Part shown: positions 400 through 64,000 of the stretch, piece after piece
How positions within the stretch are numbered: position 1 is the first letter of the stretch
How the letters are laid out: the number at the start of each line of letters is the position of its first letter
Assembly: GCA_905236715.1 (NCBI GenBank)
Contig: CAJOMQ010000009.1
Location: forward strand, 1-64,000
Direction: 5' to 3'
Length of the DNA: 64,000 bases
Source: an uncultured Bacilli bacterium
GTDB lineage: Bacteria > Bacillota_I > Bacilli_A > RFN20 > CAG-826
Notes under the pieces: model-generated
Told to the model about the DNA's origin: nothing
The model's database searches: none
What the model saw: the letters and a program-made list of their open reading frames with translations, nothing else
Translations under genes and position numbers: made by a program

Positions 400-2036
400 T
401 TACATTGTGGTATCACCATCAGTGCATTGGACAAGATGTAGTTTTGGACAATTGTCACTCCAACAATTCTCTTTTTCGATGCTATACCACTCTTGCTTAG
501 TGCCGTTATAGACAATTTTTTCCAATGCTTCGCAACTACTAAAAGCAAATTCACCAATTAAGGTAACAGTACTAGGAATATTAACTTCTAACAAAGACAC
601 GATAAAACGCTAGCGTTAATAACTTTTACTCCTTCGGGGAAGGTAAATGTTGTTAATTTGCTGCCTAAGAACGCCATTTTGCCAATATATTTTACGGATG
701 ATGATATAGATGCATTTTCTAAATAATAATAGTCACAAAAAACGCCACCAGCGATAATCTCACAATTATCATGGGTTACGATGGAAGTTAAATTATTAAC
801 CTTCACACTCGAAAGAGGTCTAATTAAAACTAAATATGGATTTTGGCTATTGCCAAGATATTCACCATTATCAAAAACATTCGCGCTTAATTGTGAACAG
901 CCTCTGAAAGCGTCAATTCCCACTTCTTCGATGGTACTAGGAATTTCAGGAAGGGAAACAAGAGATGAGCAATTCAAAAAGGCATAATCACCAATTGATG
1001 TGATATTGCCGAATGTCACGGAAACAAGACCTTTACAACCGTTAAATAAACCACTAGGAATATTTTTTATGTTTCTGGGAAGATCGATTCTTTCTAATTT
1101 TTCACTATGCATGAAAACTTTTTCACCTAATTCCGAGACGCTATCAGGAATTACTAAATTAGTCAAAGAATTACAAGATGAGAAAGCGGTTTCGCCAATT
1201 TTTGTAACACCTTCAGGAATGGTCACAGACGCTAAACGTGCACATGTCGTAAAAGCGTTAGTTTCAATGCTAGTAACACCATTAGGAATCTTGATTGAGG
1301 TGAGATTTACACAACTAGCAAAAAGACCTTCACTAATGACTGTGATTTTGCTTGGCAAATTAATAGAAGAAAAGCCACAATCTTGGAAAACTTGTTTACC
1401 AATATAAGTGACATTATTAGGAATATTAATATTTGTTAACATCGGACAATGGAAAAAAGCGAAATCTTCAATGTCATTTAATAAAGAACCATCGTTAAAA
1501 AGAACTCCCCTTAAGGATAAACAATAATAAAAGGCGGATTCTTCAATTGTTTTGATAGAATTGGGAATTATCACAGAGGTGATATTTGGGCATTTGTAAA
1601 ATCCCTTTTGTGCGATTGATGTAACAGGTAAATTTTTAAATTTTGCGGGGATAATAACATTACCTTCAATTGTTTGATCCAAACACTTAACCGCATATTC
1701 ATTTGTTTCTTCGTTTAAAACAAACGCTAATTTATCTATGGTGCCTATCGCGGTATCACCAGAAGGTTCATCGCCAGACATCCGATAGCCACAAACAGAA
1801 CAAACTAAATATTTATAGCCATCTTCCGTTTCAGTGGGATCTACAACGACATATTCACCTTGATGTTTTTCTTTATCACCAACAACATCTTTATGTTCAC
1901 AAGAAGCCTCATGCCAATGATATTCGTTGTCAAAATTCCATTCATCATAAAAAGTGTGTGTATGACCATTACTATTACAGGCTGCTAAAGTGAATAAAAT
2001 AGTTACTAAGGCGAAAATAGATATATTTTTCTTCAT
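400..2036 (-). pseudogene. BspA-type leucine-rich-repeat surface lipoprotein, frameshifted near its 3' end
   Basis: The start at 2036 gives a lipoprotein signal peptide (MKKNISIFALVTILF, lipobox LAAC with Cys20). A His/Cys-rich segment follows (about residues 24-90), then about 14 BspA-type repeats of the pattern AFxxCxxLxxVxIPxxVxxIG. Such proteins are surface adhesins or binding proteins. The main frame stops at 588 (ASVLSCLC then TAG), while another frame from about 600 to 400 continues the same repeat (LLEVNIPSTVTLIGEFAF). The real product was therefore one protein of about 540 residues. From the repeat spacing a few bases seem to be missing at 595-605. The ribosome site AAGGAGA lies about 16 bases from the ATG, which is unusually far. 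Whether this is a true mutation, a phase-variable site or a sequence error cannot be told from here. Confidence 0.8.
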
Positions 2037-2135
2037 AAAAATGTTTTTTAATTCTCCTTATCAGCACTTATCTTATGCAATGTAATTGCTAAATTCAATT
2101 AAAAATATCGTTAAGAATAGGAACTAATTTCCTAT

Positions 2136-3612
2136 TTAGTGTATGTTTATTGCTTTTTTTACTTTTATTTCGCTAGATATAATCGCGTCATTAGGACACA
2201 CCAAAAGACAGAGGTGACATCCCACACAACGTTTGGGGTCTAAAATGGGGCTTCGAGTTTCATCGAATGTAATGGCTTGATGACCACCATCACGACAAGA
2301 AATAGCGCATCTACCACAATGGAGACAATTTTCACGAATGAATTTGGGATAAATAATGACATCTCTTTCTATTTCGTTAATATCCACTAACTGGGGAAAT
2401 ACTTTATTTTTTAATTCAGATAAAGACATATCTAAACGGCCAAGGAATAATGATAATCCTTCCGTTAAATCTTCAATGATACGATAGCCATATTGCATCA
2501 CGGCGGTGGTTATTTGAATGCTACCAGCACCTAAGGCCAAAAACATCAAAGCGTCTTGATAATTTTCAATACCACCCATTGCGGAGAAATGTAGATCTTT
2601 TAATCCTTCATTTTGGGTCATTTCCACGACAAAGCGCAAAGCAATGGGTTTAACTGCGGGACCGCTAAGACCACCAAACGCAAATTTTGGTAATTCTTTT
2701 TGTTCATATAACTTGTCGATAATGTTGAATTCGGTAATTGATTTAATGGTATTAATGGCGGCGATGCCATCGGCGCCACCTCTTTTAGCTGCTAATGCAG
2801 CGGGTACCATCGAATCAACATTAGGTGTTAATTTCGCTAATACGGGAATTTTGACTGCGTTTTTCACTACTCTTGTAAAGCGTTCCACTAAAGCGGGGAC
2901 TTGGCCAACAGATGATCCAGTATTTTCTTCCATCATATTCGGACAAGAGAAATTTAATTCAATCGCATCCGCACCTGCTTCTTCTGATTTTTTGGCTAGA
3001 TAGGCCCATTCTTCATCATCTCTTCCCATAATGGAAACGAGAAGGAATTTATTAGGGAATTCTTCTTTTAAACGACGGAAAGTATCTAAATTTTCTTCTA
3101 ATGAACGATCGGATAATTGTTCGATATTTTTAAATGATTGAAAACTGCCGTCGGAATTTTTAATCATTGAAAATCTGGGGGAAGCCTCGTGAATATCCAT
3201 TAAACAGATAGTTTTATAACTTACTCCAGCCCAGCCCATCTCGAAAGCCCGTTTCACCATTTCATAAGACTGAAGAAGATAATAAGAAGGGATTTTCAAT
3301 TGGTATGCCACATATATCAGTGTGAATATCACCGTGTTTATTTTCGATGGGATTTTCTTTTTTCTTTTTAAGACAATAAGAAAGAATATCTTTGATACGG
3401 ACACTATTAGGAGCAAGACAATGTTTTTCACATGGTGCATCGCAGTTTAAACAAATATCTTGGCAACGTGCAAAAGCTCCTTGATAATTGGTAAAACGCA
3501 ATGACCTAATTATTTTTGCAGGATCAATATTATGGGGACAATTTTTACTGCATGGTGCATCAGCACAAAGAAGGCACGAAGAACATTCTTTTTTTATATT
3601 CATGGAAATCAT
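2136..3612 (-). pseudogene. PreA-like Fe-S dihydropyrimidine/dihydroorotate dehydrogenase-type flavoprotein, frameshifted
   Basis: Two overlapping frames make one protein. The first (3612 to 3262) has an N-terminal Fe-S domain with two Cys groups (CSSCLLCADAPC and CQDICLNCDAPC) and then the start of an FMN TIM barrel (GIPIENPFLLSSS). It stops at TGA near 3264. The second frame resumes at once with SYEMVKRAFEMGWAG and runs through the barrel to a C-terminal 2x[4Fe-4S] ferredoxin (CLHCGRCAISC, CVGCHLCLLVCP), ending at 2136. E. coli PreA has five residues between SSS and YEM; here only four bases remain, so about 11 bases are missing. The FAD/NADPH part of PreT is absent, so the N-terminal cluster domain joins the barrel directly. 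The start at 3612 has a good AAGGAG. The family reduces pyrimidines or related substrates; substrate unknown here. Confidence 0.75.
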
Positions 3613-3737
3613 TTGTCTCTCCTTAAAATAACTAGAAATATATTACCACACCTAACCCTAGAAAACTGACGACTAAATGAAAAATTATTTAAGCAAATTT
3701 CTTGTTTTTTTATTTTTTTAAAATTTTTTTGTCAAAT

Positions 3738-3765
3738 TTGGCATTTTCATCCCTATATGTTTAAT
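3738..3765 (+). promoter_or_regulatory. Putative promoter of peptide mRNA, copy 1
   Basis: TTGGCA (3738-3743), 16 bases, TTTAAT (3760-3765). Both boxes match consensus at five of six positions, and the stretch is identical in copy 2. Confidence 0.55.
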
Positions 3766-3806
3766 GAGGGGCAAATTATGTCCCTCAGAATAGGAGACAT
3801 ATTTTT

Positions 3807-3896
3807 ATGTTAGGGTTTATCCCTGCAGAAAGGAGGAAAAATGCAGTACCTTTTGGTGCTCGTTATTATATTGTTAGTTATCTGCTTACTAGTTAA
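3807..3896 (+). CDS. Leader ORF overlapping the hydrophobic peptide gene, copy 1
   Basis: ATG at 3807 is preceded by AGGAG (3792-3796) at a 10-base spacing. It encodes 29 residues beginning MLGFIP and ends at TAA 3894-3896, inside the peptide ORF but in another frame. In copy 2 the same ATG is in frame with the peptide instead, and the peptide sequence after MLGFIP is not kept. Its product is therefore probably unimportant; translating it could open the mRNA for the downstream ORF, as mok does for hok. This role is inferred. Confidence 0.4.
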   Translation: MLGFIPAERRKNAVPFGARYYIVSYLLTS

Positions 3897-3900
3897 GTAG
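3841..3900 (+). CDS. 19-residue hydrophobic membrane peptide, putative type I toxin (copy 1)
   Basis: ATG at 3841 follows AGGAGG (3831-3836). The product MQYLLVLVIILLVICLLVK is a single membrane-spanning stretch with a polar start and a terminal Lys. In length and composition it resembles the Ibs family (18-19 residues) of type I toxins, which insert in the inner membrane and depolarise it. Copy 2 (34754-34813) encodes exactly the same peptide although four codons differ (Val GTG/GTC, Leu CTC/CTG, Leu TTA/CTA, Ile ATC/ATT), all silent. That is direct evidence that the peptide itself is under selection. An antisense-type promoter and terminator lie just downstream on the minus strand. Toxicity is inferred, not shown. 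Confidence 0.75.
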   Translation: MQYLLVLVIILLVICLLVK

Positions 3901-3904
3901 ATAT

Positions 3905-3936
3905 AAAAAGGGCTTGTGAGCTGTGTCACAAGCACC
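3905..3936 (-). terminator. Leftward intrinsic terminator, copy 1
   Basis: An 8-bp perfect stem with a GCTGTG loop is extended by GG/CC across a one-base bulge, followed by five T on the minus strand. It is conserved in copy 2 at 34818-34850. Confidence 0.65.
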
Positions 3937-3944
3937 TAAAAGAC
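3905..3944 (-). ncRNA. Putative short antisense RNA (antitoxin), copy 1
   Basis: A minus-strand transcript starting about 7 bases after the TATAAT box would begin near 3944, fold GCTTGTGA (3912-3919) with TCACAAGC (3926-3933), and end at the T5 run (3909-3905). It would be complementary to the 3' UTR of the peptide mRNA just after the stop codon. If termination is incomplete it would run into the coding region. The exact ends are inferred. Confidence 0.5.
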
Positions 3945-3950
3945 AATATA

Positions 3951-3978
3951 ATTATAACACAGCTATTTCTCTTCGCAA
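3951..3978 (-). promoter_or_regulatory. Minus-strand promoter for antisense RNA, copy 1
   Basis: Minus-strand TTGCGA (3978-3973), 16 bases, perfect TATAAT (3956-3951). Copy 2a has TTGCTA-16-TATAAT and copy 2b TTGATT-16-TATAAT in the matching place. Confidence 0.6.
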
Positions 3979-4033
3979 GGGGCCGGGAGGCCTAATTAAC
4001 AGCCTAATTAAAATTGCTCAAAGGCGATAGATG

Positions 4034-4073
4034 AAAAAAGGAGTGCTTTACGAACTGTGCCGCAAACGCCTCC
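4034..4073 (-). terminator. Terminator of the fructokinase gene (also a degenerate remnant of the element hairpin)
   Basis: On the minus strand GGAG and CTCC close an imperfect hairpin followed by six T (4039-4034). The loop region (GAACTGTG) and the flanking bases align with the element hairpin at 34823-34850, and an ATTATA follows at 4087-4092. It looks like a decayed extra element unit that now ends the kinase transcript. Confidence 0.55.
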
Positions 4074-4087
4074 AAGCAACAATAATA

Positions 4088-5026
4088 TTATAGCAACACT
4101 AAATTATCATTTTTTAAGAAGGTGTCAATTTCTTCTTCTCTAGGAGCCGAATTAATGGCACCTTTCTTTAAAGTGGTTAAACCACCGACAACATTAGCCC
4201 TTTTTAAATAGTATTTAATTTTTTCTTCCTTATTTATAAAATCGGGCTTATTAACTAAACACGAAAGGAAATAGGCGTAGAAAGCATCACCCGCACCCGT
4301 TGTGTCAATGGGTTTCATAGGATAAGAATCCACTTTTAATAAATTCCCATGATGATAGAAGATAGAACCTTCTTTTCCTAACGTCACCACAGCGATTTGT
4401 TGGTCATTTAATAATTCATTTAAGGCTGTGCTAATATCTTTTCGTGGAGAAAACATTTCTAATTCTTCAAGAGAAAATTTCAATATATCCGCCTTTTTAA
4501 TCGCGGATAAAAAGACTTTTTTAGCCTCTTCTTTTGAAGAAAAGATATCATCGCGATAATTGATGTCAAAAGATATTTTTGCTTTGCTATGGTCTCTAAT
4601 TTGACTGATTGCGTCATCAAAGAATTTTCGTCCTATCTCTTCCGATAACATTAATGAACCAATGTGAACGATGTCATCATCACGCAAATTAGCAAAATTA
4701 ATGTCATTGATATTTATGGCGTAATCCGCACCACTAGCTCTTTCAAAGCGGAATGATCTCTCACCATTATTTAAACTAACAATGGCTTTGGAGGTGTACC
4801 GGTTAGGTAATACATCAATTTGGCAATATTTAAATGGTTTATTATTCGCGGTTTCTTGCAATAAGCGACCATATTCATCATTACCAACTGCGCCGATAAA
4901 GGCAACATCTTTGGTATATAGAAGGGCATTGCAAGCCACATTAAAAGGGGCACCACCTGGTAAAACGGTTTTATTTTTACCATCATCAAATATATCCACT
5001 AAAATTTCGCCAATACAGATGAGCAT
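4088..5026 (-). CDS. scrK: PfkB-family sugar kinase, probably fructokinase
   Basis: A 312-residue ribokinase/PfkB-fold kinase. It starts MLICIGEILVDIF and has the GGAPFNVA substrate-binding motif near residue 24 and the PfkB signature DTTGAGDAFYAYFL near residue 240, whose Asp is the catalytic base and whose GAGD forms the anion hole. The family phosphorylates sugars with ATP in the cytoplasm. The neighbouring GH32 enzymes make fructose as the likely substrate (fructose to fructose-6-phosphate). The start at 5026 has AAAGG about 8 bases upstream. A terminator between it and the upstream gene (5047-5071) suggests it is transcribed separately or by partial read-through. Substrate specificity comes from context only. 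Confidence 0.85.
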   Translation of the reverse strand: MLICIGEILVDIFDDGKNKTVLPGGAPFNVACNALLYTKDVAFIGAVGNDEYGRLLQETANNKPFKYCQIDVLPNRYTSKAIVSLNNGERSFRFERASGADYAININDINFANLRDDDIVHIGSLMLSEEIGRKFFDDAISQIRDHSKAKISFDINYRDDIFSSKEEAKKVFLSAIKKADILKFSLEELEMFSPRKDISTALNELLNDQQIAVVTLGKEGSIFYHHGNLLKVDSYPMKPIDTTGAGDAFYAYFLSCLVNKPDFINKEEKIKYYLKRANVVGGLTTLKKGAINSAPREEEIDTFLKNDNLVLL

Positions 5027-5046
5027 ATTAATACCTTTCTTTATTT

Positions 5047-5071
5047 AAAAAGCCGAGAAACAAATCTCGAC
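5047..5071 (-). terminator. Terminator after the surface module protein
   Basis: On the minus strand GTCGAGA and TCTCGGC form a 7-bp stem (one G-T pair) followed by a T-run (5051-5047). Confidence 0.7.
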
Positions 5072-5087
5072 TTATTTTAATTTATTT

Positions 5088-6941
5088 TTATTGTCTTTTC
5101 TTTCTTTTTAACATGATAAAGCAGAAAGCAACGATAGAAACAGCCACAAAGGAGACAGAGACAACTAACATAGCAGAACCATTATTTTCGATGCCGATAA
5201 AGGAAATCTTATTTCTTCCTAATGGATCGATGCCTGTTTTGATATATTCAATTGTTTGTCCAATGGTGTAAGAAACATCAGCGGCGTTTTCAAAGAAATT
5301 AGCGGATGTCGCTGATTGACCAAAAGAATAATCCATGGAATTACTGACAATAGCTTGTACATCAGCATCAAGTTCATCATATTCCGCGACTAAGGCTTGC
5401 ACAGGATCACTAGTTTTAATAGAGCACCATGTACCACCATTAGCGAGGTTTCTCAAAGTATTGTAATAACGACTTACAAAATCATAAGCTTGACCAAAAG
5501 TGGTATCACTATCACCAACATATTGGTCTAAAACCACACCATGATAGGTCGGATTTTCATTAAATTGTTGAAGGATTCTATCGACTTTGAATGATGGATA
5601 AGAATCATATTTAGTTATCACTTCATCAAAATACGCTAATCCCCAGTTGCCACCAGTGCGGTCATCACTGAGAACTACACGCACTTTTTGACCTAGATAA
5701 TCAGAACAATCTAAATAGGTTCTTGCCATTGTGTTATAACGGCTACCGGATAACATGATATTATCAACACCGCCTTTATCAGCAAAAGCTCTATTAAGAA
5801 TGTTTGTACCAGAGGCTTCATTAAGACGAGTCGTAGCTAATTCAATACCAGTGGAACCAATTAAAGATAAAACAGCGGTTCCACCACCAAGTTTAGCAGA
5901 AATTAAACCAGTTCCACTTAAGGTGAATTCAGGAGAAATTAAACGATATTTTGCATCTTCGGCAATGCCGCTGGCATCAGCGTTAATGTAATAATTGCCA
6001 GTCTTATTAGCGGGCATTCTTTCCACCCAGTCTTTCGCATCATTATCAGAAACGATAGAGGCAAAATTGATATCAGCAGTCGCAAAGTTTCTATCATAGG
6101 CCCAATTTGTTAAACCATATGTTTCAAAGCCATCATCAACATTATCTATATTCGCAATAGCGGCATTAAGAGCGTCATAAGCACTGCCGGCATAGTATGT
6201 ATTGAGCATATAATCAGCAGAAAAATTGTTTTGTGGAGATAATTGGGCATCCAAAGCAATTTGTTGCTTATGAGCCGCAAAGCTCAATGCCACTTCTTCA
6301 AGAGTTTGGTTAACACGAAGATCACCAAAAATAACACCGCCATAATAAGAGGTAGCAGTGTCTTCGATATAAACAATTAGTTCACGTCCAATATATTCAT
6401 CGGGAATAGAGAAATATCTAAGAGCCATATTGGCTGATAATTCAAAATCGCTCGCGGTGCCATTTACATAAGCATCATCAAAAGCATTTCTAGAAGCATA
6501 GAAATCGTTATGAACATTAAAGATATTTACTCCGTTATCTTTTCCTTCTTCTGGTTCTGCCCAAATATTGACAAAGCAATCTCTATTGCCACCAAGTAAG
6601 AAAGAAACATAGCCGCCTTTATGAACCCATCTAACACTTCTCACCCAGCCGGTTTCGCCTTCGCCTACTCTAGCCATTGTATTTAAGAAATTTTCTAATG
6701 AATTATAAGATCTTCTACCATCATGGAAGGTTTCGTTTCTAGCACTGATTAAATTCTCCATAGCGACATCACTAAAGCCACCACGATAGAAATTGGTATT
6801 ATTCATCGCTAAATATTTCGTAACTTCTTCTTCGGCTTTCACTTGTTGATAACGGCTACCTTGCGTATGCACGGAAATCAAACCACTTCCTGCCAAAGCG
6901 AATAAACTTGCTAAAAGGGAAAAACGTAAAATCTTTTTCAT
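5088..6941 (-). CDS. Membrane-anchored surface protein with two beta-sandwich-like modules, fructan locus
   Basis: 617 residues. There is a signal peptide (MKKILRFSLLASLFALAGSG) without a lipobox Cys, and a C-terminal anchor (about residues 590-612, then KRKKRQ), so the protein is exported and held by its C-terminus. Two modules (about 50-215 and 255-445) share with the neighbouring 827-residue lipoprotein the order N/D-x-F-E opening, a KxGxY strand, a strongly glycine-rich strand (LGGG) and a closing strand of the type V-V-L-S-D/E-D..WG. These look like carbohydrate-binding jelly rolls, but I do not recognise a named family. The rest is helical. The gene has its own promoter and a LacI-type operator just upstream. 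Likely role: capture of fructan at the surface (inferred). Confidence 0.7.
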   Translation of the reverse strand: MKKILRFSLLASLFALAGSGLISVHTQGSRYQQVKAEEEVTKYLAMNNTNFYRGGFSDVAMENLISARNETFHDGRRSYNSLENFLNTMARVGEGETGWVRSVRWVHKGGYVSFLLGGNRDCFVNIWAEPEEGKDNGVNIFNVHNDFYASRNAFDDAYVNGTASDFELSANMALRYFSIPDEYIGRELIVYIEDTATSYYGGVIFGDLRVNQTLEEVALSFAAHKQQIALDAQLSPQNNFSADYMLNTYYAGSAYDALNAAIANIDNVDDGFETYGLTNWAYDRNFATADINFASIVSDNDAKDWVERMPANKTGNYYINADASGIAEDAKYRLISPEFTLSGTGLISAKLGGGTAVLSLIGSTGIELATTRLNEASGTNILNRAFADKGGVDNIMLSGSRYNTMARTYLDCSDYLGQKVRVVLSDDRTGGNWGLAYFDEVITKYDSYPSFKVDRILQQFNENPTYHGVVLDQYVGDSDTTFGQAYDFVSRYYNTLRNLANGGTWCSIKTSDPVQALVAEYDELDADVQAIVSNSMDYSFGQSATSANFFENAADVSYTIGQTIEYIKTGIDPLGRNKISFIGIENNGSAMLVVSVSFVAVSIVAFCFIMLKRKKRQ

Positions 6942-59470: not shown

Positions 59471-60520
59471 TTATTCGCTTATTTCTTTGATGAAATGCAA
59501 AAATTCTTTGAAGCGTGGTAAAGCAAAAGTTATCTTATTTCGATAATTTGCTTCGATAATACCTTTTAAGAACAAGGCTTTCTTATAGTTAGAAAATTGA
59601 TTAGAAGGGATGTTGAAGGTTTCTTGCAAATATTTGCTTTCGGGATTATCAATCGCGGTTAAAACGATTTCTTTTTCCTTTTCTGATAATTCATCAAAAA
59701 CAAAGTTATATGATCTTTCTTGCAAGGCTTCATCATATTTTTGTAAAACAAATTTATCCGCCTCTTTTTTACCACTTCTAAATAAAATGTCACCCAGTAA
59801 TTGATATGCAAAAGCATATCCATTTGTTAATTTAGTTAATTTAATAGCGGCTTTTTCTTCGATGCCAAAGACATTCATATAACTATTGGTAATTGACCTT
59901 TTATTGAGTTCGCCCAAATAAATACGTGGGGCTCTAATAAGGAATGTCAAATTCTTTTGCTTTGTTAATGAAACAATATTTTTGTATAAACCTGTCATTA
60001 ATAGGAATACTGGGAAATCATCGCGGAGTAATAATTGATATTCATGGCAGAAAACCTTCATGAAATCAGTATTAGAAACTTCATCTATTGTTATTAAGAC
60101 TTTATATTGTTTCTTTGATAAATATTCTAATTCTCTTTTTAATAAAGTAGAGATGTTGAGAATAGGTTCACTACCGGAAATAGAAAAACCAAAACCTTTA
60201 AAGGAAAAATTAAATTCCGTTTTTACAAAAAGCTTTTTCAATTTGCCTTCGTCAATCAACTTCGACGCTAATTGTTCAAGCATGTCACTATCAGGATTTA
60301 ATTCAACGACTATCCATTGATCCATTTTCTTAAATTTATCGGAAACATATTTCATAGCAACAGTTTTTCCAGAACCTCTGGCTCCACTGATTATATATGC
60401 TTGAGAATTGCTGTTTTCGCTTAGAAAAGAATCATATATCTCATTCATTTCGATATCTCTAGAAATAATCGCTTTTGGTTCAACGCCAAATAAAACATTA
60501 AAAGGATTGGTTTTTGTCAT
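59471..60520 (-). CDS. AAA/STAND-like P-loop ATPase of unknown role
   Basis: 349 residues. Walker A GARGSGKT (46-53), Walker B VLITIDEV (141-148), then a winged-helix-like C-terminal part (ELSEKEKEIVLTAIDNPES, FNIPSNQFSNYKKALFLKG). It resembles archaeal-type ATPases and Orc/Cdc6-like small ATPases of unknown function found in gut Firmicutes. Its upstream region carries eight phased TGAAC repeats (60558-60650), suggesting it or a partner binds them. No adjoining partner gene in the same operon. Confidence 0.72.
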   Translation of the reverse strand: MTKTNPFNVLFGVEPKAIISRDIEMNEIYDSFLSENSNSQAYIISGARGSGKTVAMKYVSDKFKKMDQWIVVELNPDSDMLEQLASKLIDEGKLKKLFVKTEFNFSFKGFGFSISGSEPILNISTLLKRELEYLSKKQYKVLITIDEVSNTDFMKVFCHEYQLLLRDDFPVFLLMTGLYKNIVSLTKQKNLTFLIRAPRIYLGELNKRSITNSYMNVFGIEEKAAIKLTKLTNGYAFAYQLLGDILFRSGKKEADKFVLQKYDEALQERSYNFVFDELSEKEKEIVLTAIDNPESKYLQETFNIPSNQFSNYKKALFLKGIIEANYRNKITFALPRFKEFLHFIKEISE

Positions 60521-60557: not shown

Positions 60558-60650
60558 ATGAACTTTCAATTTTTTTGTGAACTTTTGTGAACTTGAATGA
60601 ACTTTGTGAACTTTTGTGAACTTTTAAATTTTTTGTGAACTTTTGTGAAC
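60558..60650. repeat. Eight phased (G/A)TGAAC repeats upstream of the ATPase gene
   Basis: ATGAAC or GTGAAC begins at 60558, 60577, 60587, 60597, 60606, 60616, 60635 and 60645. Steps are 19, 10, 10, 10, 9, 10, 19 and... 10 bases overall, that is one or two helical turns, mostly as TTTTGTGAAC units. Sites with this phasing lie on one face of the DNA. It covers the promoter region of the 59471-60520 gene. Confidence 0.8.
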
Positions 60651-60779
60651 TTCACTATAAAGTAATGAGTGTTTTTTGATATAAAAAAGATTTTTCGGAA
60701 ATAAAATTTCCGAATAATCAATAGATGTTACAAATATTACAACAAGCAAAATGCGTTAAGTTGTTTGGCTAACTAATAA
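60651..60779. other. Intergenic region with terminator hairpin of the DUF234 ATPase gene
   Basis: TCGGAAAT-AAA-ATTTCCGA (60695-60713) forms a perfect 8-bp hairpin. On the minus strand it is followed by AAAATCTTTTTT, a fair terminator for the gene ending at 60825. Nothing else is seen. Confidence 0.55.
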
Positions 60780-60826
60780 TTTTTTTGCCAAAACTCATTT
60801 TTTTAGGCACTTTTGGCAAAATTTTT
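60780..60826. repeat. 47-bp flanking repeat, left copy
   Basis: Identical to 62327-62373. It contains an 11-bp inverted repeat, TTTTGCCAAAA (60783-60793) and TTTTGGCAAAA (60811-60821). It overlaps the stop codon of the ATPase gene at 60825. Confidence 0.85.
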
Positions 60827-62270
60827 ATAAGAACAAATCGTCTTCATCAATGACATTGACAAAATAATTTGAATAAGAATTAACCGCCAATCCCTTGGGA
60901 GTAACTATTAAAGGAAGGACAGAATATTTAGTATTGGTAACCGTGATAAAATCGGGAATCCTATATAGATAATCTTCATAAGTTTTCTTATCGATAACAT
61001 ATGGTGTTAAGGAATATTTCATTTCACACAAATGGATGATTTGATCGCGTCTAGCAATAACTAAATCAATTTGATGACCCTTAATGCCTTTTTCTTCATC
61101 GGCTTGGCAGCGGAAAGAAGAAATATCCGTTGATACACCACTGATGCCAAGAGCCATCTTAATAGCGTTCACATTTTCTAAACAGACTTGTTCAAAAGCG
61201 CGGCCTTCCCAGTTGCGTTTTTTAGGGGAATCCATAAGATTAACAAAATAGTTTTCATCAGTAGGAGGCTCTTTTAAAAATTCATAATAGAACAACGTAA
61301 AATTATCGGTTAATTGATAAATAGAACTATTTTCTTTTTTACCGAAGGGATGATATTGTCTGATGAATCCACATGATTCTAAATCATCAAGTCGCATTGA
61401 AAAATAACCATTTTTTGATAATTTTGTTTTCGTGGCGATTTCATCTCTTGTGAGGCCCATCTTCTTTTTGCTTAAAGCTTCCACAATTTGTATATAGCCT
61501 TGGTAATTTTTAAACATTGAGCGGTATAAATAATTAAATTCGCCTTTTAAAGGGGCGTTGGCTTTAAAAAATAATTCATCAATATTTTGTTCAAAACCTA
61601 AATTAGGCATGATTAAATCCCAATAATAAGCCACACCACCAAAAACCATATAATATTTCAATATTTGATCTTTATTTAAATTCAGCTTCCGGTATATAGC
61701 GTATTCGCGACATTCTTTTAAAGTGAATGGTTTTAAATTAATCGTACATGTCACACGATTATATAAGCCACCGCTACTATGAATCACATTATTTAAAATC
61801 CATGATGTCGCAGAAGCACAAACGATTAATACAATATCATTTCTTAATGATAACCATTGATTATAAAATTGAGCGAAAGCATCAAGAAAATCACACTTGG
61901 GAGTGTCCATCCATGCTAATTCATCAAGGAAGATGACTTTTCTTTTGTGACCTAATTTAGCAATACAAGAATATAGCATTCGGAAGGCTCCAAACCAATC
62001 CTTCGGTACATCATAAACATCAGGAAAGTAAAAAGACATCGAATTAGCGAATGCTTTTAGTTGCACATCTAATTGTTCTTTATAATCTAATTTTTTATCT
62101 TCTTTGGGTGGCACACCAGAATGCTGAAAGGCAAAATGTTCTTTAAACATTTCTTTGACCAAAAAAGTTTTGCCAATTCTTCTTCTTCCATAGATGGCAA
62201 TAAATTGATTACCTTCTTTGGCAAAAGCATTATTGAGTATTTCTTTTTCTTTTTTTCGTTCAATGAGCAT
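60825..62270 (-). CDS. ATPase with C-terminal DUF234 (PD-(D/E)xK-like) domain
   Basis: 481 residues from the ATG at 62270 (MLIERKKEKEILNNAF), preceded by AAAGGTG. A longer frame starting at 62366 lies within the flanking repeat and is rejected. Walker A GRRRIGKT (28-35), Walker B VIFLDELAWMD, a winged helix (LTRDEIATKTKLSKNG) and a C-terminal DUF234 with IDLVIARR and CEMKYS, a D...ExK pattern of nuclease-like folds. This archaeal-type ATPase/DUF234 family is widespread, often in many copies, and not well understood; links to mobile DNA or defence have been proposed. The gene sits exactly between two identical 47-bp repeats. Confidence 0.8.
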   Translation of the reverse strand: MLIERKKEKEILNNAFAKEGNQFIAIYGRRRIGKTFLVKEMFKEHFAFQHSGVPPKEDKKLDYKEQLDVQLKAFANSMSFYFPDVYDVPKDWFGAFRMLYSCIAKLGHKRKVIFLDELAWMDTPKCDFLDAFAQFYNQWLSLRNDIVLIVCASATSWILNNVIHSSGGLYNRVTCTINLKPFTLKECREYAIYRKLNLNKDQILKYYMVFGGVAYYWDLIMPNLGFEQNIDELFFKANAPLKGEFNYLYRSMFKNYQGYIQIVEALSKKKMGLTRDEIATKTKLSKNGYFSMRLDDLESCGFIRQYHPFGKKENSSIYQLTDNFTLFYYEFLKEPPTDENYFVNLMDSPKKRNWEGRAFEQVCLENVNAIKMALGISGVSTDISSFRCQADEEKGIKGHQIDLVIARRDQIIHLCEMKYSLTPYVIDKKTYEDYLYRIPDFITVTNTKYSVLPLIVTPKGLAVNSYSNYFVNVIDEDDLFL

Positions 62271-62326
62271 TTTTTGATCACCTTTCTTGGTGCTTTCATT
62301 ATAAAACAACACGAGAGAAAAGTAAA

Positions 62327-62373
62327 TTTTTTTGCCAAAACTCATTTTTTTAGGCACTTTTGGCAAAATTTTT
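62327..62373. repeat. 47-bp flanking repeat, right copy
   Basis: Identical to 60780-60826 and in the same orientation, 57 bases upstream of the ATPase start codon, where the promoter would be. Confidence 0.85.
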
Positions 62374-62438: not shown

Positions 62439-64000
62439 TTAACGATTTTCTTTTCTTTTCTTAATTAATAAATAAGCACCATAAGATGATATAGAGAAAA
62501 TAGAAATAGATAGGATGATAATAAATAAGTGATTATCACGATGGAATATATCATTGAGTGAATAAGAAGAATATCCGTATGCAGCAGTATTCTTTCTACC
62601 GATATAATCAGTATATGAATATTTACCAATGATGATGTCATATCTAGACATCGCAATAGCGACATCATTGGTGGTACTTCCTGTTGGTGTGACGATATCA
62701 CCACTAACGGTATAAGTAGCATTGATTAATAAATCTTTTTGGCTAAGTGGGAAGATATCATCATATAAAGAAGATAATTCATTCCATGATATGTTTAATG
62801 TAGGTGTACTATTACCAGTAGCATCACAGCTAATGGAACTGATAAATATTTGCGCATATTCTTGCGCGGTAAAAACCTTCTTATAAATATTTAATGGATA
62901 ATAATTATTGGAAAGTGAATAAGTCGTAAAACGAGCATACCCATCTGAGGGATAATAAAATTCAAGATATAAATATCCTTCGGTAATAATATCATAACCA
63001 GTGGCGTTAATATTTTCCCCGAGATTCCAAGCAGTTCCACTGCTAGATATATCATCAATCAATCCTAAATCGTTATAAGTACCATTTTTATATCCATGTA
63101 AATAATTGGTTCCATCATAAAAGGCAAAACCACTTTCCGTATCTATGACCTTCCATGAAGTCATTAAAGATGAATCATAAGTGATTTGCTGATTAGAAAT
63201 AGAAATAGTATTAGGTGTTAAATAATAATTATTTAAAACGGTATTTTTTAAAGCATAACCAGTTGTCGCGGAACGATTATTTTGCGCTACAATAATGATT
63301 TCATCACCATCTTTAATGGGGTCATCACCGGTTACTAAAGCATATTTGACATCACCAGTTCCACTAACGGTAACAACACATGTAGCGGTAAATCCACCAT
63401 CAACACTGGTGACAGTAATAGTGGCAGTTCCCACTCCATTTGCGGCAATAAGTCCACTATTATTGACACTAGCAACATCATTGTTATTAGAAACATATGT
63501 CACTTCTTTATTCGTCGCGTTATTTGGGGAAACAGTCACTTCTAATTGGCTATTTTCACCCACAGTTAGACTAACACTACTTGGAGAAACGCTGATACCG
63601 GTAACTGCTATATCACCACTATCATCATTCCAACCATTGATGTTATCACTAGTAGGAGTGGCAACATTACCACTATTACCCCAGGCGATATCCGCCCATT
63701 CGGGGAAATCGATAAAGGGATTTCTATTATTTGTGTAATTATTATATAAAAGATTATTACGATGAATTTCAAATTCATCCGGTGGATCAAGACGATTCCA
63801 TTCTAATAAATCAGATAAGATACCAAGAGAAAAGGATTTGGTCGCACTAGAAGTACCAGTGCTACCAGAAACAATATTCGCTAAACGTAAGTCTGGATTA
63901 TTGGTGTCTATCCCACTTGTGGCACCCGCTAAATTGTTATATCTAGCCGCCATATAGAAACAGGCTCTGGCGATATCGCCTTTATCACAATCTTGGGGTT
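62439..64000 (-). CDS. Surface-anchored endonuclease I-family nuclease with Big_2 domain (N-terminus beyond window)
   Basis: The frame is open to the right edge, so the true start is outside; an internal Met at 63953 is not the start because the bases before it encode the conserved CDKGDIARACFYMAARY. That motif, with ILSDLLEWNRLDPPDEFE, HRNN and NRNPFIDFPEWADIAWG, marks an endonuclease I-type secreted nuclease. A Big_2 Ig-like domain follows (ITGISVSPSSVSLTVGE type), then a sandwich with YALKNT and a C-terminal anchor (IIILSISIFSISSYGAYLL, KKRKENR). It should degrade extracellular DNA or RNA for nutrients. The stop at 62439 is 65 bases from the ATPase repeat. Confidence 0.82.
   Translation of the reverse strand, partial: PQDCDKGDIARACFYMAARYNNLAGATSGIDTNNPDLRLANIVSGSTGTSSATKSFSLGILSDLLEWNRLDPPDEFEIHRNNLLYNNYTNNRNPFIDFPEWADIAWGNSGNVATPTSDNINGWNDDSGDIAVTGISVSPSSVSLTVGENSQLEVTVSPNNATNKEVTYVSNNNDVASVNNSGLIAANGVGTATITVTSVDGGFTATCVVTVSGTGDVKYALVTGDDPIKDGDEIIIVAQNNRSATTGYALKNTVLNNYYLTPNTISISNQQITYDSSLMTSWKVIDTESGFAFYDGTNYLHGYKNGTYNDLGLIDDISSSGTAWNLGENINATGYDIITEGYLYLEFYYPSDGYARFTTYSLSNNYYPLNIYKKVFTAQEYAQIFISSISCDATGNSTPTLNISWNELSSLYDDIFPLSQKDLLINATYTVSGDIVTPTGSTTNDVAIAMSRYDIIIGKYSYTDYIGRKNTAAYGYSSYSLNDIFHRDNHLFIIILSISIFSISSYGAYLLIKKRKENR

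Follow-up and report, generated by a model that had tools for sequence, protein, structure and literature searches.

A gene for a predicted ATPase-nuclease between private palindromes in an uncultured Bacilli bacterium

The gene, its protein and its flanking repeats

We analysed a 64,000-nucleotide stretch of DNA from an uncultured Bacilli bacterium (GenBank assembly GCA_905236715.1, contig CAJOMQ010000009.1, positions 1 to 64,000), hereafter the window, and describe one of its genes together with the palindromic repeats on either side of it. The gene (60825..62270, minus strand, ATG at 62270) encodes a 481-amino-acid protein of the PDC-S27, or ATPase_2 plus DUF234, type, with a predicted ATPase-winged helix-PD-(D/E)XK architecture. 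It is flanked by identical 49-bp repeats at 60778-60826 and 62325-62373 (both given on the minus strand), 1547 bp from start to start. An initial annotation, made from the sequence alone, had noticed identical direct repeats around the gene and was right except for their length, which it gave as 47 bp. The 11-bp inverted repeat that it described inside each copy is also there: the arms, TTTTGCCAAAA and TTTTGGCAAAA, stand 17 nt apart, and read in the sense of the gene the repeat is TTTTGCCAAAA gtgcctaaaaaaatgag TTTTGGCAAAA, with an AT-rich spacer. The arm-N5..30-arm pattern matched twice in the window and never in 100 shuffles, which excludes a chance origin of the inverted repeats. In the whole 1.29-Mb genome the core 39-mer (up to 3 mismatches) occurs only at the two flanking sites, and a search of 278 further genomes from the order did not find it. 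Presence at many unrelated genes, as of a general terminator, had been named as grounds against a specific role; the repeat is absent from unrelated genes of this genome and of the others searched.

The downstream copy shares 2 bases with the stop codon TAA (60825-60827, minus strand), as the initial annotation had reported. The other copy had been placed at the promoter, and this upstream repeat, the proposed operator or cognate binding site and the one with a family-wide counterpart, does directly abut the -35-like hexamer of a promoter-like site, TTTACT-17-TATAAT (62298..62326, minus strand), whose first hexamer touches the palindrome edge. The site is a consensus match only, scoring 10/12 and joint best among 9 sites in the region; because such matches are about as common in the shuffled region, and their number does not exceed that in shuffles, the promoter itself is only plausible. 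Beyond the downstream palindrome lies a terminator-like hairpin (60694..60714, minus strand), one of 2 in the region against 0.9 expected in shuffles.

The protein matched PF01637 (ATPase_2) above the cut-off, over residues 3-212 (61635..62264), with Walker A K34 and Walker B D116-E117, and matched the PADLOC model PDC-S27 (PDLC04984) over its full length (residues 2-480, E = 3.1e-175). Structure prediction of the whole protein reached a predicted local distance difference test score (pLDDT) of 90.6, and the closest folds in Foldseek were archaeal ATPases such as 2qen and 2fna, along with many Orc/Cdc6 chains (E down to 5e-9). In the predicted model, and by Orc/Cdc6-type matches, a helical winged-helix region at about residues 244-310 (61341..61541) is the candidate DNA reader; some family members have weak TFIIIC-B-block/MarR matches there. 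The C-terminal third, modelled separately (pLDDT 85.5), resembles PD-(D/E)XK-type nucleases, including Cas4-like ACE1, Card1, MspJI, SduA and Bax1, with mostly modest scores, and would hold the nuclease core at about residues 349-460 (60891..61226; E360, D402, E416, K418). At E<=0.1 the DUF234 Pfam domain was found in 11 of the 13 members aligned and not in the window protein. K34, D116, E117, E360, D402, E416 and K418 are invariant in 131/131 aligned relatives. By these models and matches the window protein is an Orc/Cdc6-like ATPase with a winged helix and a predicted PD-(D/E)XK nuclease. As a candidate in PADLOC, the gene may serve antiviral defence.

Gene-specific palindromes throughout the family

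Close relatives are patchily distributed: at E<=1e-60 they turn up in 22 of 279 genomes from the order, and a single genome (G039) has 11 close copies. A genome scan found relatives in Bacteroidales, Lachnospiraceae, Kiritimatiellae and others, and they are present on plasmids and phages as well; most loci examined come from metagenome assemblies. A second family member, at locus L020, has three palindromes of its own, of different sequence. Most copies in G039 and related genomes carry palindromes, and paralogues within G039 differ in arm sequence.

We compared family genes with other open reading frames (ORFs) of at least 300 amino acids from the same loci, with a single hairpin score applied throughout. 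In the 250 bp upstream, a strong palindrome was found at 91/130 family genes and at 13/251 control ORFs (p about 1e-41); after de-replication at 70% protein identity, 70 of 99 family genes still had one, and dinucleotide shuffles of the family upstream regions yielded none (0/198). Direct repeats spanning the gene (local score >=45) were found at 32/120 family genes (27%) and at 3/234 controls (1.3%; p about 1e-13). Control genes begin at the first ATG of the ORF, so that their upstream borders are defined less precisely than in family genes, which adds noise and is unlikely to create a gap of such size. The thresholds were set after the first examples had been seen, so the palindrome counts are descriptive and not a pre-registered test; neighbouring thresholds give a similar picture. 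The palindromes are thus a property of the whole gene family, with a sequence specific to each gene. Conservation at other copies of the family, on which the initial annotation had made its reading depend, holds for the anatomy and not for the sequence.

Some loci depart from the usual arrangement. At L091 and L118 direct repeats of about 105-118 bp surround the gene, unlike the usual short palindrome, and that at L118 includes GTAGAGATGTTCCATGGAACATCTCTAC. The upstream halves of L027 and L028 are 97.8% identical, their gene ends and downstream DNA differ, and L028 has lost the downstream palindrome. In Wolbachia phage WO the gene lies between head genes, beside two palindrome copies; across L168-L174 the palindrome ACCGCNG..CNGCGGT recurs between head genes with or without the ATPase gene, and at L173 it is also found near a mobile element.

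A further arm copy was found around the gene at 50/93 eligible loci, downstream in 23 of these 50. Between copies within a locus, identity is 89% in the arms and 61% in the spacers, and spacer length is constant or within about 1 base across the listed copies; because copies were picked by arm similarity and by spacer length within three bases, arm identity is biased upward and length constancy is partly built in, whereas the drift of the spacers is unaffected. At L083, L072, L074 and L105 the arms are closely matched and the spacers hardly so. Such retention of arms while spacers drift fits sequence-specific recognition of the arms.

The upstream palindromes also keep a relation to promoters. 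Among 52 loci with a Bacteroidota -7 box (TAnnTTTG), 42 have the box downstream of the nearest palindrome, and in 23 of these 42 it lies 2-14 bp past it; the -33 element then falls within the 3' arm, where it would be expected for an operator. By position, the upstream palindrome would cover or abut the -35/-33 element. Four loci (L107, L110, L120 and L125) have an extra half-site, GCGGAAA, right after the -7 box, as would be expected of a third contact at the transcription start.

Filled, solo and empty sites in one genus

Where related units lie in different contexts, their homology runs from about the outer palindrome edge to the stop codon. We observed this in L124/L131 (both in one genome), L103/L106/L115, L066/L069/L070/L071 and L107/L110/L120/L125, and in six profiled pairs identity dropped sharply at both borders. 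L030 and L045 are 93% identical from -192 to about +90 and lie in differing contexts. Sharp borders in the more distant pairs could partly reflect decay of unconstrained flanks, and the pairs at 90-93% identity are more telling.

In one genus (g23) the site itself could be followed. G219 has a filled site, with the gene between a pair of palindrome units on the left and another pair on the right. G227 has the same flanks around one 119-bp two-unit block and no gene, a solo site, and this block is chimeric: its left part is like the left block of G219 and its right part like the right block. An empty site, with the right flank of G219 and no repeat, is found in G027, G221, G230 and G236, and G027 shares the left flank too. 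A chimeric block is what recombination between flanking copies is expected to leave, and the solo site looks like its product; the reverse order, with the gene entering a pre-existing solo site, may also have occurred. For a second locus, L031 in genus g25, the left flank alone was recovered, in three genomes. At the g23 site we recognised no target-site duplication on comparing G219 with G027, G230 and G236, the linkers being AT-rich. A search for dispersed palindromes across the 19 genomes of g23 returned one locus only, besides weak two-mismatch matches.

G222 has a degenerate solo unit at the same left border, followed by 4.5 kb with two other genes and then by the gene unit. In this locus (L208, reoriented 1917-6516) the two genes encode a 338-aa membrane-like protein and a 977-aa surface-like protein with collagen-type repeats; between the solo unit and the ATPase unit they appear as if they were cargo that had entered at the repeat.

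Comparison of these sequences shows the palindrome and ORF moving as a unit of about 1.5 kb, with three site states in one genus. The initial annotation had suggested insertion of a cassette; this is supported by the three site states in the genus of a relative and by homology that stops close to the palindrome on one side and to the stop codon on the other, in different contexts. For the window's own copy no empty site was found among five same-genus genomes, which are too divergent: matches to the upstream neighbour reached at most 46% identity, and the regulator gene that we tried had no match. We also dropped phage WO as a clean empty-site comparison, as the palindrome occurs in gene-less phages too.

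A private operator on a mobile gene, and its alternatives

We consider it probable, from comparative sequence evidence, that the protein binds its own fast-evolving palindrome, controls its own expression and travels with the palindrome as a one-gene cassette. The cassette would consist of a private palindrome on the promoter, the ORF and a second palindrome at the stop codon. The protein would most likely bind the double-stranded DNA of its palindrome, probably in the form of a symmetric dimer whose two subunits each hold one arm, with an AT-tract spacer of fixed length between them, and in this state would repress its own promoter. The downstream copy may bind the protein as well, serving titration or looping, or may mark where the unit ends; the unit of about 1.5 kb would spread with or without it, and gene loss through recombination between flanking copies would leave a solo repeat. 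On infection, a change in the ATPase or repressor state might release or arm the nuclease, if its role is in defence. Binding by the encoded protein, the role of the nuclease, autorepression, defence and active transposition are all parts that we infer, and the nuclease may serve defence, mobility or both. Arms that differ fast between genes and yet stay matched within a locus are as expected of protein-site co-evolution. The initial annotation had also considered binding sites for the encoded protein; palindromes that lie on the promoter, differ from gene to gene and keep their arms as the spacers drift lend this comparative support. The cassette and binding-site readings appear compatible, and the comparative evidence supports both.

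Several observations weigh against the self-binding cassette. The two copies in the window are identical including spacer and edges, so for this locus recent duplication and selection are inseparable. About 30% of relatives lack a strong upstream palindrome at the thresholds used, and a downstream copy is present in only about a quarter. Gene-less WO phages hold a similar palindrome at the matching spot, which is therefore not private there, and we set the WO case aside. Between genes, arm similarity is higher above 60% protein identity and falls to background below it, so that this comparison stops short of demonstrating protein-arm co-evolution directly; a scan for a protein segment co-varying with the arms gave residues 171-185 as its top result, marginally above permutations.

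The palindromes might instead be transposon ends, with the ATPase-nuclease as the mobility enzyme, the palindromes as terminal recognition sites, and the fixed spacer and paired arms as a transpososome or cleavage site. This would account for the sharp homology borders near palindrome and stop codon in six pairs, the two related copies in one genome (L124/L131), the 93% identical unit of L030/L045 in two contexts, the existence of filled and empty sites, the direct repeats on both sides of the gene in 27%, the invariant catalytic nuclease residues and a weak AAA+ similarity to TnsC. We nevertheless regard it as unlikely, given that recognition sites at both ends are not general (downstream copy at 23/93 eligible loci, spanning repeats at 32/120): most members lack the downstream copy, and their right border is then merely the stop codon. 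Moreover, the G219 site showed no recognisable target-site duplication, dispersed gene-less copies were found neither in the window genome nor, beyond the same locus and the weak matches, in the 19-genome genus, and the palindrome is placed on the promoter like an operator. A replication-type initiator, in which an Orc1/Cdc6-like ATPase with linked boxes serves a local origin or the replication of a former plasmid, would suit the Orc/Cdc6 fold matches and the haloarchaeal cdc6 layout, with linked sites upstream and downstream (PMC3936714). It seems very improbable to us, as the nuclease domain is fused and always conserved, the units are scattered within chromosomes with up to 11 close paralogues per genome, and GC skew, which we used to look for an origin signal in the 64-kb window, does not change across it.

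Two further explanations concern the repeats alone. The two 49-mers could be a functionless target-site or slippage duplication from one insertion, for which the full identity of the window copies speaks; across the phyla, loci of unrelated sequence show this anatomy again, spacers drift where arms are conserved, and at many loci two copies precede the gene, so that this family-wide pattern largely refutes passive duplication, and we give it very little credence. We hold least likely of all an element acting as RNA, such as a terminator, attenuator or leader hairpin, which the strong inverted repeats in or near the leader might suggest. An RNA hairpin would favour G-U over A-C mismatches, and the arms, read on the sense strand over 1274 pairs, hold 16 G-T, 16 A-C and 19 other mismatches, equal counts that give no sign of RNA pairing. 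A-tract and T-tract spacers are interchangeable, as are inverted copies, palindromes occurring in either orientation; many copies lie upstream of the promoter, and the stem has no trailing T-run. We rejected the terminator and RNA hairpin on the lack of G-U bias and of a T-run and on the variable position relative to the promoter. By these sequence features the palindromes most likely act as a DNA element, not an RNA element.

Returning to the self-binding cassette, we can tentatively extend it, with limited conviction, to a widespread class of single-gene selfish elements: an Orc-like ATPase-PD-(D/E)XK fusion would use its own diversifying palindrome as operator and mobilisation site, and private arms would keep dozens of related elements from interfering. 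The palindrome provides a definite DNA ligand and a likely regulatory switch, gives access to the way in which the gene spreads, and raises the testable question of whether each protein reads only its own palindrome and thereby restrains its nuclease. If so, the fast-changing matched arms would be a natural library of protein-DNA specificity pairs.

The adjacent genes in the window have features of their own. A neighbouring AAA_14-like ATPase gene (59471-60520, minus strand) is preceded at 60559-60652 by at least 5 overlapping copies of the iterated repeat TGAACTTTTG, which sit on a promoter-like site (60569-60541), making it the second ATPase gene here to have upstream repeats of its own. The upstream neighbour (62439-63998, minus strand), which leaves the window, has an Endonuclease_1 C-terminal match, a Big_2 immunoglobulin-like domain and a C-terminal hydrophobic segment.

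Among known systems, REP/RAYT is also a single gene flanked by its own palindromes of gene-specific sequence. The window palindrome, by contrast, is not dispersed, with two copies in the genome, both at the gene, and the protein is an ATPase-nuclease and not an HUH transposase. Integron attC cassettes consist of a single ORF between palindromic sites whose arms vary fast, and such a cassette can be acquired or lost; in the window family, by contrast, the promoter carries the first copy, each gene has private arms and arrays are not the rule. Tn7-like TnsC and TnsA pair an AAA+ regulator with a PD-(D/E)XK protein, functions that the window protein would hold in one chain (weak TnsC match, E=0.005), but no transposase partner was recognised beside the window gene and the ends are not Tn7-like.

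The same domain plan is that of PDC-S27, the PADLOC phage-defence candidate. A 2026 survey characterises PDC-S27 as a fusion of an ATPase with a PD-(D/E)XK member and states that most such candidates await validation (PMC12988326), and passages of two papers rank it with the more abundant defence candidates in archaea and in rumen microbes (PMC12988326, PMC13356809). In these passages the published treatment covers the gene only; the strings "palindrom", "inverted repeat" and "autoregul" have zero occurrences in PMC12988326. In the open-access literature we found no described trigger or target of PDC-S27, and nothing relevant among the matches listed for DUF4143 with repeats or archaeal ATPase with palindromic repeats. 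Orc1/Cdc6 proteins share with the window protein the AAA+ plus winged-helix fold class and have boxes next to their own gene, although the window protein has a fused nuclease and no origin signal was seen in the window. In Haloarcula hispanica the Cdc6 that recognises a given origin is the one whose gene lies next to it, and one cdc6 gene is followed downstream by a box-rich region that likely titrates Cdc6 (PMC3936714). A haloarchaeal Cdc6 with its own linked boxes may thus serve as a close working analogy for the window cassette.
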